NCBI RefSeq assembly: GCF_000614185.1
Contig: NZ_BAKM01000009.1
Coordinates: 1 to 64,000 of the forward strand
DNA: 64,000 nucleotides
Source: Phocaeicola sartorii JCM 17136 = DSM 21941
GTDB lineage: Bacteria; Bacteroidota; Bacteroidia; Bacteroidales; Bacteroidaceae
Reading direction: 5' to 3'
The notes under the pieces are model-generated. The model saw only the letters and a program-made list of their open reading frames with translations, was not told the origin of the DNA and searched no databases. This document shows positions 51,117-55,693 of this stretch, piece after piece. A program made the translations under genes and the position numbers. How positions within the stretch are numbered: the first letter of the stretch is position 1; every line of letters begins with the position of its first letter.

Positions 51117-52393
51117 ATGGATAAGAAATATAGCAGGGAGACCTTATGCGTACAGGCAGGCTGGACTCCGAAAAAAGGCGAACCGCGTGTTTTGCCTATT
51201 TATCAAAGTACCACATTCAAGTATGACACCAGCGAACAAATGGCGCGTCTGTTCGATCTGGAAGACTCGGGATATTTCTACACACGCCTGCAAAACCCCA
51301 CCAATGACGCTGTCGCCGCTAAAATAGCAGCTCTGGAAGGCGGTGTAGGTGCTATGCTGACCTCGTCCGGACAGGCTGCCAACTTCTATGCCATTTTCAA
51401 TATCTGCCAGGCAGGCGACCACTTCGTATGCTCGTCCACCATCTACGGAGGCACATTCAATCTGTTCGGTGTCACGCTGAAAAACTGGGTATCGAGTGTA
51501 CCTTCATTGACGCCAATGCATCCGAGGAGGAGATAGACCAGGCTTTCCGCCCGAACACCAAAGCCTTGTTCGGCGAGACCATCTCCAATCCGAGCATCGA
51601 CGTGCTGGACATCGAAAAGTTCGCACGTATCGCCCACAAGCACGGTGTGCCTTTGATTGTGGACAACACCTTCGCCACGCCCATCAACTGTCGCCCGTTT
51701 GAATGGGGAGCGGATATCGTCACCCATTCCACCACCAAATACATGGACGGTCATGCCACCAGTGTAGGCGGCGCCATTGTGGACAGCGGTAACTTTGACT
51801 GGGAAGCCCATGCGGACAAATTCCCCGGCCTGACCCAGCCCGACGAATCTTATCACGGACTGACATACACCAAAGCGTTCGGCAAAATGGCTTACATGAC
51901 GAAAGCAACCGCCCAACTGATGCGCGACCTCGGCTCCATCCAGTCTCCGCAAAATGCGTTCTTGCTGAATCTGGGACTGGAAACACTGCACCTGCGCATG
52001 CCCCGTCATTGCGAAAACGCACAGAAGGTGGCCGAATGGCTGGAAGCCAACCCGAAAGTGAAATGGGTGAACTATTGCGGACTGAAAAGCAGCAAATACT
52101 ATGATCTGGCACAGAAATATATGCCAAACGGCTCGTGCGGTGTCATCGCTTTCGGCTTGAACGGCACCCGTGAGGAAGCGATAGAATTTATGGACAGACT
52201 GAAATTCATCTGCATCGTAACCCATGTGGCCGACGCACGTACCTGCGTACTGCATCCCGCCAGCCATACTCACCGCCAGCTCACCGACGAGCAGTTGCGC
52301 GAAGCGGGAGTCGCTCCGGACCTGATCCGTTTGTCGGTAGGCATTGAGAATGTAAGCGACATCATTGCCGATATTGAACAAGCTTTACAATAA
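51117..52393 (+). pseudogene. PLP-dependent Cys/Met metabolism enzyme (O-acetylhomoserine sulfhydrylase / methionine gamma-lyase type), one frame break
   Basis: Two frames join to about 425 residues when one A is restored in the A-run at 51482-51486 (VTLK / KLGIECTFIDA). Motifs: SRETLCVQAGWTPKKGEPRVLPIYQSTTF, LTSSGQAANFYAI, the PLP-lysine segment STTKYMDGHATSVGG (Lys about 208), and LIRLSVGIENVSDIIADIEQAL at the C-terminus. The YMDGHATSVGG and LSVGIE forms fit O-acetylhomoserine (thiol)-lyase, which makes homocysteine from O-acetylhomoserine; methionine gamma-lyase is the alternative. It precedes an SDR gene by 10 bp. The break in a homopolymer of a core-metabolism gene is the clearest sign of sequence error. 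Confidence 0.87.
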
Positions 52394-52403
52394 GGCGAAG
52401 CGG

Positions 52404-53131
52404 ATGAAAAGGATCATTATCATTGGCGCCACTTCCGGCATCGGACTGGAAGTGGCGCGATGCTATCTGAAAGCCGGCTGGCAGGTAGGCGTGGCAGGAC
52501 GTAGAGAGGAAGAACTGGAAAAACTCCGGCAGTCCGCCCTCGGACAGATATGTACCCAGCGGATAGATGTCACCCGCGAGGATGCCCCTGCCTTATTAAA
52601 GCAACTGATTATGAAAACGGGAGGTATGGATGTGTTCCTGCTCAGCTCGGGCATAGGCAAACAAAATCTTTCACTCTGCCTGATATAGAATTACAGACCG
52701 CAGCCACCAATGTCTCGGGATTCATACGGATGGTCAATGCCGCCTATCACTATTTTGAACAGCAAGGCAAAGGACATATAGCGGTGATCAGTTCCATAGC
52801 AGGCACCAAGGGACTGGGGTCCGCCCCTGCCTATTCAGCGACCAAACGGTTTCAAAACACCTATCTGGATGCTTTGGACCAATTGGCGCACATGAACAAA
52901 CTACACATTTCCTTCACCGACATCCGTCCCGGATTTGTTGCCACCCCTCTGTTGAAAGATGACAAATACCCACTGCTGATGCAGGCTCCCCACGTGGCGT
53001 CACACATTGTAAAAGCCATCTCCCGAAGGAAAAGAACAGCTGTCATAGACTGGCGTTATCAAATTTTGGTGTTCTTTTGGAAACTGATTCCCGGATGGTT
53101 ATGGGTGAGGCTTCCCGTACGGAATCAATAA
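52404..53131 (+). pseudogene. short-chain dehydrogenase/reductase, one frame break
   Basis: Starting at 52404 (MKRIIIIGATSGIGLEVA) two frames join to about 242 residues when one A is restored in the AAAA run at about 52662-52665 (SGIGKQ / KSFTLPDIELQTAATN). The Rossmann GxxxGIG motif (GATSGIG) and the catalytic Ser-Tyr-Lys set (ISSIAGTKG, AYSATK) are present. It is probably NADP-dependent; the substrate is unknown. It follows the PLP enzyme in one operon. Typed pseudogene only because the frame is broken. Confidence 0.87.
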
Positions 53132-53157
53132 TCCTCCAACCGATATCATTTCATAGG

Positions 53158-53221
53158 GAAGCCCCTTGTTCTCATCCTGAACTTGCGAAAGATTTGTAAA
53201 CAAGGCGAGGGCTTCTTTATT
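53158..53221 (+). terminator. possible terminator after the SDR gene
   Basis: GAAGCCC and TTGTT near 53158-53170 can pair with AACAAGG and GGGCTTC at 53198-53215, followed by TTTATT. The stem is long and interrupted, so confidence is limited. The 338-bp gap 53132-53469 also contains the ECF-type promoter and palindrome listed next. Confidence 0.4.
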
Positions 53222-53382
53222 CCCCCTCCCCGGAACTACCTGAATGAAAGAAATTGATCAAGGAGACCGGCAAAGCCTGTGATCTGGCTGATGAAAGATC
53301 AAACAGGCTATTGAATGATGCTTTCTTTGCAAAGCCGGACCACTTTACAAACATAGAAACTTAAAAAAAATCTTTTCCCTTT

Positions 53383-53431
53383 GTAACAACTTTCCCGCTT
53401 CCCCCGTCTATCTGATTGAAAGCGCTTTCAA
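53383..53431 (+). promoter_or_regulatory. ECF-type promoter plus 16-bp palindrome
   Basis: GTAAC (53383-53387) and CGTCTA (53405-53410) have the AAC / CGTC character and ~17-bp spacing of ECF sigma promoters. This suits auto-regulation by the sigma factor in this operon. Directly downstream, 53416-53431 is the perfect 16-bp palindrome TTGAAAGCGCTTTCAA, which has the form of LacI/GalR-family operators (central CG, TGnAA half-sites). It lies about where transcription would begin, so a repressor there could block the operon. Confidence 0.5.
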
Positions 53432-53469
53432 AAAACAAATTCAGTTATGAACAAAAACAAAATAAAACC

Positions 53470-53964
53470 ATGAAAAAGTTTGTATTTACTCTATTGTTAG
53501 TCTTAGGGTGTCAGATTAGTCTTGCACAAAATTCTGCAGCACTCTTTGATGAATTTCGCCGGGAGAAAAACGCTGAATATGTCAGTGCATCCCCTTTCCT
53601 CATGTTTATAGGAAAAATGTTTTATTCTTATAATGATGAGGGCAAAGAAATAGCAAGCAAAATACGCTCCGCCAAAATACTAGATCTGGATGAGTGCTCA
53701 CCAGACGTAAAACAACGCTTTTCCCGACAATTCGAGGCATTGTCCAACAACGGCTACGAAACGCTGATGCAAATGAATGAAGATGGAGAACGAATACACA
53801 TACAAATGAGAATGAAAAAGGAGGTCATCCGGGAATTGCTCATTGCTATCATAGAGGATGATGAATGCTCACTGATACAAGTAAACGGAAAAATACGCAA
53901 ACAAGATATTGCCCAACTTATAAACGATCAAACAACAAATAAAAAGAAGCATGGACGCCGCTGA
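53470..53964 (+). CDS. DUF4252-family exported protein
   Basis: Starting at Met 53470 (MKKFVFTLLLVLGCQISLAQ) it has a signal peptide and about 164 residues; an upstream in-frame ATG at 53416 falls in the palindrome and is unlikely. The mature part (SAALFDEFRREKNAEYVSASPFLMFIG ... NNGYETLMQMNEDGERIHIQMRM) matches the DUF4252 layout. DUF4252 proteins have no proven function and are often encoded beside ECF sigma factors. The gene overlaps the sigma gene by 14 bp. A second DUF4252 gene ends the operon. Confidence 0.75.
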   Translation: MKKFVFTLLLVLGCQISLAQNSAALFDEFRREKNAEYVSASPFLMFIGKMFYSYNDEGKEIASKIRSAKILDLDECSPDVKQRFSRQFEALSNNGYETLMQMNEDGERIHIQMRMKKEVIRELLIAIIEDDECSLIQVNGKIRKQDIAQLINDQTTNKKKHGRR

Positions 53965-54463
53965 GTTTAAACAACAATTCCTGCCTTACCACCGCAAACT
54001 CTACCGGACAGCCTTCCGGCTGACAGAAAACCCTCAGGAGGCGGAAGATATGGTGCAGGAGGCGTATCTGAAATTATGGAACAAGCGCAATGAGCTGACG
54101 GGCGTGCTGAACACTGAAGCCTACTGTGTCACCCTTGTCAAAAACCTGTGCTACGACGCCCTCCGCAGAAGCCGGCCCGATGAAGACGGACATGCACCCG
54201 AAGAGCTGAACCTCCCTACGGACACCAACATAGCCCGGGAAGTAGAACAACGGGACGAGGTAAACCAGGTACGCCGGCTCATCGGCCGGCTGCCCGAGCA
54301 ACAAAAGCGGGTGATTCTGCTTCGTGATGTCAATGATTGCTCCTTTGAGGAGATAGAGCAAGCCACAGGACTGAACGCCATCAACATACGTGTGTTGCTG
54401 AGCCGTGCCCGCAAAAAGATACGTGAACAATATAATGCTATAATGAACTATGAAAGTAAATGA
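53951..54463 (+). CDS. ECF RNA polymerase sigma factor
   Basis: 170 residues with region 2 (YHRKLYRTAFRLTENPQEAEDMVQEAYLKLWNKR, about 10-45) and region 4 (LPEQQKRVILLRDVNDCSFEEIEQATGLNAINIRVLLSRARKKIREQY, about 115-163). It overlaps both neighbours by 14 bp, so sigma and the predicted anti-sigma protein are made together. It probably reads the ECF-type promoter at 53383. Confidence 0.93.
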   Translation: MDAAEFKQQFLPYHRKLYRTAFRLTENPQEAEDMVQEAYLKLWNKRNELTGVLNTEAYCVTLVKNLCYDALRRSRPDEDGHAPEELNLPTDTNIAREVEQRDEVNQVRRLIGRLPEQQKRVILLRDVNDCSFEEIEQATGLNAINIRVLLSRARKKIREQYNAIMNYESK

Positions 54464-54980
54464 AATAGAACAACTATTGACCCGGTATTACGATGGAGAA
54501 ACCAGCGAAACCGAAGAAAAGGAACTGAAACGCTTTTTTACCGAAGAGGACGTTCCGGCTCATTTACTTGCCGAGAAGGAAATCTTCATGCAACTGGCAG
54601 CGCCTCCCGCCCCCGAGATACCGGAAGGACTGGAAAGCAGGCTGAGCCGCAAGATAGACGAATGGGACACAGGCGAAAGACGCACGCTGAAAATAAAAAG
54701 ACATACACGGGTCCTCCGCTTGCAATGGATAGGAAGCATAGCCGCCAGCCTGCTCATCCTGCTCTCCGTAGGACTGTACCTATACAAACCCTATCCGGCA
54801 CCGCAAGACACCTGCGCCACCCCCGAAGAAGCATACACACAGGCCCAGAAGGCACTTATCATGCTTTCCAGCAGCCTGAATAAAGGAATAGAAAAGGTGG
54901 AATCGGTGCAGGAAGCCACCGGAAAGATTCAAGAGAACGTAAACGAACAATTAAACCGATTAAATAACATAAAACAATGA
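54450..54980 (+). CDS. putative membrane anti-sigma factor
   Basis: 176 residues. The N-terminal part (EIEQLLTRYYDGETSETEEKELKRFFTEEDVPAHLLAEK) is the zf-HC2-like / DUF-type anti-sigma start without the zinc ligands. One membrane helix follows (LQWIGSIAASLLILLSVGLYLY, about 92-113), and then a periplasmic coiled-coil-like tail rich in Q/E/N (ALIMLSSSLNKGIEKVESVQEATGKIQENVNEQLNRLNNI). Position after the sigma gene and topology support an anti-sigma role; sequence alone does not prove it. Confidence 0.7.
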   Translation: MKVNEIEQLLTRYYDGETSETEEKELKRFFTEEDVPAHLLAEKEIFMQLAAPPAPEIPEGLESRLSRKIDEWDTGERRTLKIKRHTRVLRLQWIGSIAASLLILLSVGLYLYKPYPAPQDTCATPEEAYTQAQKALIMLSSSLNKGIEKVESVQEATGKIQENVNEQLNRLNNIKQ

Positions 54981-55435
54981 AACGTACATATATCATTACC
55001 TTATTGCTCTCTCTGTGCTCACTGTTTACCTACGCACAGGACAGTTTTTTCGACAAGTTCGCTGATATGGAAGGGGTAACCTCTGTCTATATCTCAAAAG
55101 CCATGCTCAGCCTGATGCCCAACATGAAAACGGAAGGGGTAAATATAGGCGAAGTAGCCTCCAAACTGGACAACATCCAGATTCTAAGTTGTGAAAAGCC
55201 CGACATTATCGCCAAGCTGAAAAAGGAAACAGCTTTCATCAGCCCCAAGAACGGCTACGAGGAACTGATGCGCATAAACGATGAAGGCGAGAAAACCATC
55301 ATTTATCTGAAACGGAACAAAAACAAAGAAAAGGAATTTGTATTGATGAGTCAGGAAAAAAATGAATTTACCATCATCGCCATCACAGGAAATCTGACTC
55401 TGCAAGAGATACAAGGCATCATCAACAAGGAGTAA
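54977..55435 (+). CDS. DUF4252-family exported protein
   Basis: 152 residues with a signal peptide (about 1-20, LFTYAQ). The mature part is a typical DUF4252 domain (DSFFDKFADMEGVTSVYISKAMLSLMPNM ... GYEELMRINDEGEKTIIYLKRNKNKEKEFVLMSQEKNEFTIIAITGNLTLQEIQGII). It starts inside the stop region of the anti-sigma gene (4-bp overlap). It is the better conserved of the two DUF4252 copies flanking the sigma/anti-sigma pair. Likely an envelope protein under control of that sigma factor. Confidence 0.85.
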   Translation: MKRTYIITLLLSLCSLFTYAQDSFFDKFADMEGVTSVYISKAMLSLMPNMKTEGVNIGEVASKLDNIQILSCEKPDIIAKLKKETAFISPKNGYEELMRINDEGEKTIIYLKRNKNKEKEFVLMSQEKNEFTIIAITGNLTLQEIQGIINKE

Positions 55436-55496
55436 CTCCACGCATACCCCACCTTAAGGCTTTTCCCCCGTCTGCTAAGGCCTGAAGAAAGGATAC

Positions 55497-55591
55497 ATAC
55501 TATCTCCATAGCACTATGGAGTTATCTCCAAAGCTTGCGGAGTTAACTCCAAAGGCTATGGAGATAACTCCGCAGGTTTTGGAGATAGTAA
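55497..55591. repeat. 21-bp tandem array of palindromic units
   Basis: Units begin at 55518, 55539, 55560 and 55581, exactly 21 bp apart, with a partial one before (55497). Each carries a dyad core: GGAGTTATCTCC, GGAGTTAACTCC, GGAGATAACTCC, GGAGATAG. The stretch 55436-55693 has no gene; a short frame across the repeats (ELTPKAMEITPQ) is only the heptad read-through of the array. Phase-locked palindromes two helical turns apart look like protein-binding sites or a folded RNA. Confidence 0.7.
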
Positions 55592-55693
55592 CCGGACGGC
55601 CGGAAAAGCTTAACAATAGGACTGCGAACGCTTACGTTGTCTCCGGAAAAAGGTTATCCGCCCGCAGAATCCCCGCCCCGCCAATCAAGAGAC

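Follow-up and report, generated by a model that had tools for sequence, protein, structure and literature searches.

A probable self-activating ECF sigma factor operon of Phocaeicola sartorii with a conserved element at the expected start site and an exchanged first DUF4252 gene

Among the closest described relatives of the operon discussed here, four genes for a DUF4252 protein, an extracytoplasmic function (ECF) sigma factor, a probable anti-sigma factor and a second DUF4252 protein in Phocaeicola sartorii JCM 17136 = DSM 21941 (contig NZ_BAKM01000009.1, positions 1 to 64,000, the 64,000-nucleotide stretch hereafter called the window), is the PG_0214 operon of Porphyromonas gingivalis. In the available portions of the published work, PG_0214-0218 and PG_0985-0987 rise in concert, by as much as about tenfold when a PG_0686 mutant is exposed to peroxide, PG0985-0987 are lowered in two sphingolipid-pathway mutants, and PG_0987 is stated to be among the vesicle-located proteins. 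The PG_0214 sigma factor belongs to the same NCBIfam family as that of the window and is followed, by tag order, by a putative anti-sigma gene, a DUF4252 gene (PG_0216) and two hypotheticals, all co-changing according to the same excerpts. Unlike in the window, the sigma gene comes first, an arrangement known from tag order only. The GFO_1088-1091 cluster (NF058625, NF058626, and NF058619) is similar in that the window sigma factor passes NF058625 and both DUF4252 proteins match NF058626, below its cut-off, and many loci of the class have this type of order (sigma, anti-sigma, DUF4252, DUF4252), often with the same promoter; the window differs in having one DUF4252 gene ahead of the sigma gene and a dyad at the start site. 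In Prevotella bivia, PREBIDRAFT_RS05890-05910 are, by tag order, DUF4252, DUF4252, sigma, hypothetical and DUF4252 genes, and all are lowered together in a mixed biofilm in the part of the source available; here there are two DUF4252 genes in front, and the four Prevotella-type loci examined lack the dyad. As far as the accessible text of their descriptions goes, two further systems show partial likeness. The EcfO-Reo/Dma dual-membrane systems of Phocaeicola vulgatus and Bacteroides combine an ECF sigma factor with a membrane anti-sigma factor that answers envelope stress, but Reo bridges the two membranes with a barrel in the outer one, whereas the third protein of the operon, of 176 aa and with one membrane helix, is not of this type. 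In the CirYZ-Spy operon of P. vulgatus an ECF sigma/anti-sigma pair is co-transcribed with a gene for an exported protein, which is a Spy-like chaperone there and DUF4252, predicted to be alpha/beta, in the window operon.

We consider it likely that the window operon is a self-activating ECF sigma/anti-sigma operon of this PG0214/GFO_1088 kind that responds to the envelope, with an operator at its start site and an exchangeable first effector, a reading that draws on gene content, promoter recurrence, conservation of the start-site element and exchange as seen in sequence comparisons. The four genes overlap by 14, 14 and 4 bp, as the preliminary description had reported, and all lie on the + strand: the first DUF4252 gene (53470-53964, 164 aa), the sigma gene (53951-54463, 170 aa), the probable anti-sigma gene (54450-54980, 176 aa) and the second DUF4252 gene (54977-55435, 152 aa). 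The product of the second gene has ECF sigma regions 2 and 4 by Pfam and passes NF058625 (sigma_PG0214) with 199.2 bits against a cut-off of 130, over residues 1-169 of 170, which places it in the sigma_PG0214/GFO_1088 family. Its proposed partner is a probable anti-sigma factor because of its position and weak similarity, so that of the sigma/anti-sigma pair described earlier between the DUF4252 genes the first member is firm and the second is probable. A single transmembrane helix lies near residues 88-112 of the third protein, followed by a short helical tail; the protein does not belong to the zinc-finger (ZAS, zf-HC2) class, since its zf-HC2 score is below the cut-off and no Cys stands ahead of the membrane helix. 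As a candidate for class I (ASD), in which an N-terminal helical domain contacts the sigma factor ahead of one membrane helix, it has a helical structure model whose top Foldseek rows are RsiW and MucA complexes, weak matches (E > 1) from a poor model; a sequence search of solved structures found no credible relative.

Both outer proteins pass the PF14060 (DUF4252) gathering cut-off of 23.9 bits, with 83 bits for the first and 104.5 bits for the second, and match NF058626 (GFO_1090) with 42.4 and 87.5 bits, below the cut-off of 150; they are 27% identical to each other. Both have signal-like N-termini (hydrophobic in the first protein) and are probably exported, in line with the preliminary description. 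In the window genome (G000; 160 contigs, 91.7% complete, 5.5% contaminated) no DUF4252 gene other than these two was found, and both lie on contig C152. A second sigma factor above the PG0214-family cut-off (168 bits) is encoded at G000:C143:79535-80017, away from the DUF4252 genes on C152.

The ECF-like promoter with AAC and CGTC elements ascribed to the operon is present as TGTAACAAC-N15-CGTC (53382-53408, + strand), in the promoter-like stretch TGTAACAACTTTCCCGCTTCCCCCGTCT at 53382-53409, and the strict pattern TGTAACA-N15..17-CGTCT has its sole match in the genome at this operon. The weight of this promoter, and of the palindrome that follows it, rests on recurrence, because both hold the same place in diverged relatives. 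The pattern AAC-N15..19-CGTC lies at most 170 bp from the first start codon in 45/48 loci, duplicates between collections included (the exceptions are L083, L116, and L117). The class has 32 other genomes with a match; we chose 34 regions from 27 of them, leaving out five with weak matches (G259, G263, G274, G386, and G434). There, [TC]G[TC]AAC-N14..18-CGTC adjoins the first gene in 19 of 29 sigma-bearing loci and 3 of the 5 stand-alone DUF4252 loci, and it was found 0 times elsewhere in the 258,866 strand-bases of the 34 regions. A first, mostly Bacteroidaceae set gave 10 matches elsewhere in 413,974 strand-bases, including the promoters of three loci missed by the script; L072, L091, and L094 were scored as misses only through the stop-to-stop reference for the start of the open reading frame (ORF), and the wider promoter comparison shows their promoters. 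The housekeeping box TAnnTTTG is absent from the + strand of 53132-53470, a weak negative with about 0.2 matches expected.

Since the promoter is kept before the sigma gene over class distances and before some lone DUF4252 genes, we read it as a sign of self-activation with DUF4252 as a target, and the comparisons support this as the best reading of its recurrence. The self-activation suggested in the preliminary description is therefore borne out as far as the promoter's recurrence before these operons goes, and transcription by the operon's own sigma factor is a prediction from sequence. The signature may define a regulon that includes some of the stand-alone DUF4252 genes. A wider regulon with the strict promoter was rejected; beyond the operon there is no strict match in the window genome, and the 5 non-operon matches in five sister genomes are inside ORFs.

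The usual spacing of ECF promoters places the start point near a perfect 16-bp palindrome, TTGAAAGCGCTTTCAA (53416-53431, strandless), which would overlap or adjoin the expected transcription start and is probably an operator or a start-site element. It lies where it had been described, beside the likely start, and holds the same place in diverged relatives. Within the window there are 4 matches to it with at most 3 mismatches against 0.40 expected in shuffles, and 0/100 shuffles reach 4. We compared 23 non-redundant promoters, no two of which have sigma factors at least 85% identical (L083, L116, and L117, with no promoter match, are out), and 18 have a dyad at a fixed distance. A division by eye gave 13 promoters with TGAAAGCGCTT or TGAAGCGCTT, 3 with ATGCGCAT, 2 with other dyads (L086 and L114) and 5 with none. 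The GCGC core starts 13 nt past CGTC, or 12 nt in L074 and L080. Perfect 16-bp palindromes occur in 3/23 promoters (the window, L074, and L075), and the P. vulgatus type strain ATCC 8482, of the same genus and among the near relatives of the window, has TTGAAAGTGCTTTCAA, an imperfect palindrome with one central mismatch. By eye, L172 and L176, which are not among the 23, also show a related element, though an imperfect one. The mean best-dyad score is 4.6 at the element vs. 3.6 upstream of the -35 element and 2.9 further down the leader, so symmetry alone exceeds background only modestly, and more weight falls on the conservation of a sequence at a fixed position. The dyad-less Prevotella-type promoters (L085, L087, L088, and L089) have a common ATAAAGA stretch at the same place.

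Our leading guess is that the element is an operator for a dedicated regulator; it is specific to one operon, as far as searched, which points to a regulator. Of the second repressor proposed in the preliminary description, the conserved DNA element at the expected start stands and the repressor function is not supported. Ranked second, and possible though rather less probable, is that the conserved unit TGAAAGCGCTT is a start region (start site or first transcribed bases) read with the promoter by the sigma holoenzyme, its symmetry being secondary. This would fit the 1.0-1.6 bits of the left GAAA columns vs. 0.3-0.9 bits of the mirrored TTTC columns, the fixed spacing from CGTC, the confinement of the element, within the genus and outside ORFs, to this promoter, and a Parabacteroides locus that retains TGAAAGC without the right half. 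It would also fit the symmetry scores, which exceed those of nearby DNA only modestly, and the way the element, the -35 element and the sigma clade change in parallel (TGCAACATT with ATGCGCAT). However, the symmetry outlasts sequence change, as in ATTGAAGCGCTTCAAT of Bacteroides faecis, ATGCGCAT of another clade and TGAAAG-GA-CTTTCA of L086, and ECF promoters are not known to depend on a start-site element of this kind, which also counts against it.

A new finding, from sequence comparisons with one genome per species, is that the mature part of the first DUF4252 protein was exchanged between sister species, and once more in a second pair. Compared with IMSAGC_004, the flanks of this part of the window are for the most part 90-100% identical (apart from a single fall to 63% at 55510, downstream of the operon), the signal-peptide step is at 77%, and the seven 60-base steps from 53530 to 53949 are at 52-62%; we place the exchanged segment at 53505-53943 (+ strand). 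Genome G156 repeats this trough, at 55-65% with 80-100% in the flanks, and P. vulgatus is 82-100% identical to the window throughout, with no trough. For the proteins, the window and IMSAGC_004 are 99% identical in the sigma factor, the anti-sigma factor and the second DUF4252 protein, but the first DUF4252 protein falls to 47% in its mature part. Duplicates between collections and L116-L118 were left out of the trees and pair tables alike, and the trees also omit L085 and L087-L089. The tree of the first gene groups the window with P. vulgatus and G198 (100/100), and the sigma tree groups the window with P. vulgatus and IMSAGC_004 (97/93). In the second case, L097/L104, the sigma and anti-sigma factors are each 92% and the second DUF4252 protein 86% identical, and the first DUF4252 protein is 90% identical in its signal peptide and 37% in its mature part, with breaks at nearly the same places. 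The second DUF4252 gene is the unchanged copy in both cases.

Among the 35 pairs with sigma factors at least 80% identical, 8 have a first DUF4252 protein below 60%, and these comprise the two exchange cases plus L073/L091, in which the sigma factor itself is at 80%. No such drop is seen in L073/L082 and L099/L101, and in L079/L096 it is the second DUF4252 protein that differs more (80 vs. 96%). Over 630 pairs of 36 loci (one entry for each locus with two front DUF4252 genes), mean identities are 57% for the sigma factor, 51% for the second DUF4252 protein, 43% for the anti-sigma factor and 40% for the first DUF4252 protein. The first copy is thus overall slightly more variable than the anti-sigma factor, and it is exchange, not a steady fast rate, that stands out.

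An anti-sigma factor that stays the same next to two such dissimilar first proteins makes it unlikely, on these sequences, that the first DUF4252 protein needs a specific contact with it. We infer that the first protein is an exchangeable effector and the second the more conserved one, and the exchange, striking the first copy alone, makes the earlier suggestion of different jobs for the two copies likelier. We think it improbable that the DUF4252 proteins are instead sensors or feedback partners of the anti-sigma factor (RseB- or CpxP-like). The linkage of DUF4252 to sigma/anti-sigma genes in loci from genus to class would suit such partners, but for copy 1 the 47% identical alleles (mature part) beside 99% identical anti-sigma factors argue against it, and the promoter shared by 3/5 stand-alone DUF4252 genes is what effectors would have. 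Copy 2 may still have such a role. A still more speculative and less probable idea is that the first protein is an envelope or surface recognition protein (a target, decoy or shield facing phage, a rival's toxin or a host factor) exchanged as a cassette by homologous recombination between conserved flanks, with the signal peptide on one side and the overlapping sigma gene on the other, its display being timed by an ECF switch that has its own repressor at the start site.

That phages or plasmids carry the first DUF4252 gene was rejected, since a scan of viral contigs, which reaches close relatives only, found no relative, and the two records deposited as plasmids are both typed as non-mobilizable. 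A record labelled as a P. massiliensis plasmid, L211 (OY726002.1), is 95-100% identical over the operon to the P. faecalis locus L073 and 78-100% identical to the P. massiliensis type-strain locus L082, and its species or plasmid label is doubtful.

The preliminary description had linked the palindrome to a LacI-type repressor and to carbon state, and a search for further copies in the genome does not support this. The exact 16-mer occurs once, and the 8 sites with two mismatches are all inside ORFs (0/8 outside), one of them (L009) at the very end of an ORF, within its last codons and some 80 bases ahead of the gene that follows; likewise 0/5 other TGWAANCGNTTWCA sites lie outside ORFs. Across 61 genomes of the genus, TGAAAGCGCTTTNA has 11 occurrences, of which 8 belong to this operon and the other 3 fall within ORFs. 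The palindrome fits a LacI/CcpA-type consensus, and the genome has two LacI-family genes, beside sugar-kinase-like and peroxiredoxin-like genes (neighbours by eye). One of these regulators (L205, G000:C138:68975) is directly behind the peroxiredoxin-like gene, an odd neighbour for a sugar regulator. Binding by a LacI-family repressor tied to carbon state is nonetheless very unlikely: neither pattern gave another site in the genome that is clearly intergenic, no perfect palindrome of at least 12 bp was found in 3.1 kb around either LacI gene, the operon has no sugar gene, and the published Bacteroides Crp-like motif differs from the palindrome. A LacI or carbon regulon was rejected on these grounds, the extra copies in the genus being inside ORFs, as was a Crp-like global motif. 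We give next to no credence to an RNA role for the palindrome, in which it would form a hairpin at the start of the message, since its 6-bp stem in the window sequence (-2.4 kcal/mol) is not kept in relatives, 10/18 non-redundant dyad-bearing sequences having no stem (0.0 kcal/mol) though the DNA core stays.

The model of the second DUF4252 protein (41 sequences, mean pLDDT 81) is alpha/beta, and its closest counterparts among solved folds are DcrB, Eag chaperones and PsbP/Mog1-like proteins, with Z at most 6.5 and TM-scores of about 0.4 or less. The DcrB match (Z 6.5, rmsd 4.6, 113 aligned) and the EagT6 match (E 3.3e-4 yet TM-scores of 0.33-0.38) are both below the trusted level, and a sequence search of solved structures found no credible relative of either DUF4252 protein. 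A Mog1/PsbP/DcrB-like fold is a weak, model-based lead that we have not used for function.

In the mechanism we propose, the one-helix anti-sigma factor would hold the sigma factor at the inner membrane until an extracytoplasmic signal frees it. The freed sigma factor would use TGTAACAAC-N15-CGTC to transcribe its own operon, whose overlapping genes would probably be translated as coupled units, so that each response would refill the sigma and anti-sigma factors and two presumably exported DUF4252 effectors. In Bacteroides and Phocaeicola the dyad on the expected start, most likely an operator, would let a regulator dampen or gate this one promoter. Envelope sensing is suggested by analogy and by the P. 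gingivalis and Prevotella expression data, as far as the portions available to us report them. Several points weigh against this proposal. A reversed control pattern likewise occurs once in the genome, so the strict-promoter count alone shows no enrichment, and the promoter pattern is missing from 10/29 class-wide sigma operons. The element is missing from 5/23 promoters, just 9/23 dyads have p < 0.05 against shuffles of their own 22 bases, and the right half of the dyad is weakly conserved, the left half being better kept. Our searches found no expression data on this operon itself. The anti-sigma factor reaches none of the curated cut-offs (27 of the required 100 bits for NF052375, 15.5 of 22.2 for zf-HC2), and its structure model is poor (pTM 0.27). 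The P. gingivalis gene PGN_0319 (SigCH) we take to be the same as PG0214. The available part of its description says that SigCH acts directly on cdhR and hmuYR, and family members may therefore control genes far from their operon. We nevertheless find this reading sound: the observations of the preliminary description are confirmed and its interpretation is supported in part.

The operon is of a known kind that is widespread in the phylum. Its sigma family is above the cut-off in 126/151 sampled genomes of the taxonomic family, and DUF4252 is found in 29/61 genomes of the genus (12/37 of those of good quality) and in 33/295 sampled genomes of the class. The order DUF4252, sigma, anti-sigma, DUF4252 is kept in 25 of the 28 genus loci fetched besides the window, and a DUF4252 gene precedes the sigma gene in 19/19 loci examined from the contig collection (20 found, L090 left out), 3 of which have two; the commonest order in the 34 class regions is sigma-anti-DUF or sigma-anti-DUF-DUF. 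The only families that recur in 20/20 compared neighbourhoods are the operon's own. A dedicated regulator gene in the neighbourhood was rejected, since non-operon families recur in at most 7/20. One locus in a genome labelled as another family, L076 (Odoribacter sp. Z80), has the operon with a 77% identical sigma factor, and its first DUF4252 protein clusters with the IMSAGC_004/G156 allele, which is due either to transfer between families or to contamination.

Upstream of the operon are genes for a PLP-dependent sulfhydrylase-like protein (51117-52393, by eye) and a short-chain dehydrogenase (52365-53131). Each is broken into two frames in the window and is a single ORF in L071 and L072, so either sequencing error or decay may be responsible. 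Behind the operon, 55490-55600 is a series of related direct and inverted units based on tatggagataactcc, and IMSAGC_004 differs from the window in this run, where the identity dip at 55510 lies.

DUF4252 operons are spread through the Bacteroidota, yet the papers found that name DUF4252 give, in the portions available, no function for it, in keeping with the earlier statement that none is proven. The window operon is an ordinary member of this widespread group, lifted above the routine by its start-site element and repeated exchange, and it offers three handles on the group: a promoter signature that recurs in the class, a start-site element specific to the operon and the recurrent swapping of one exported protein's mature part. 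Such swapping often marks an arms race, and the hosts here are common, genetically testable gut bacteria.

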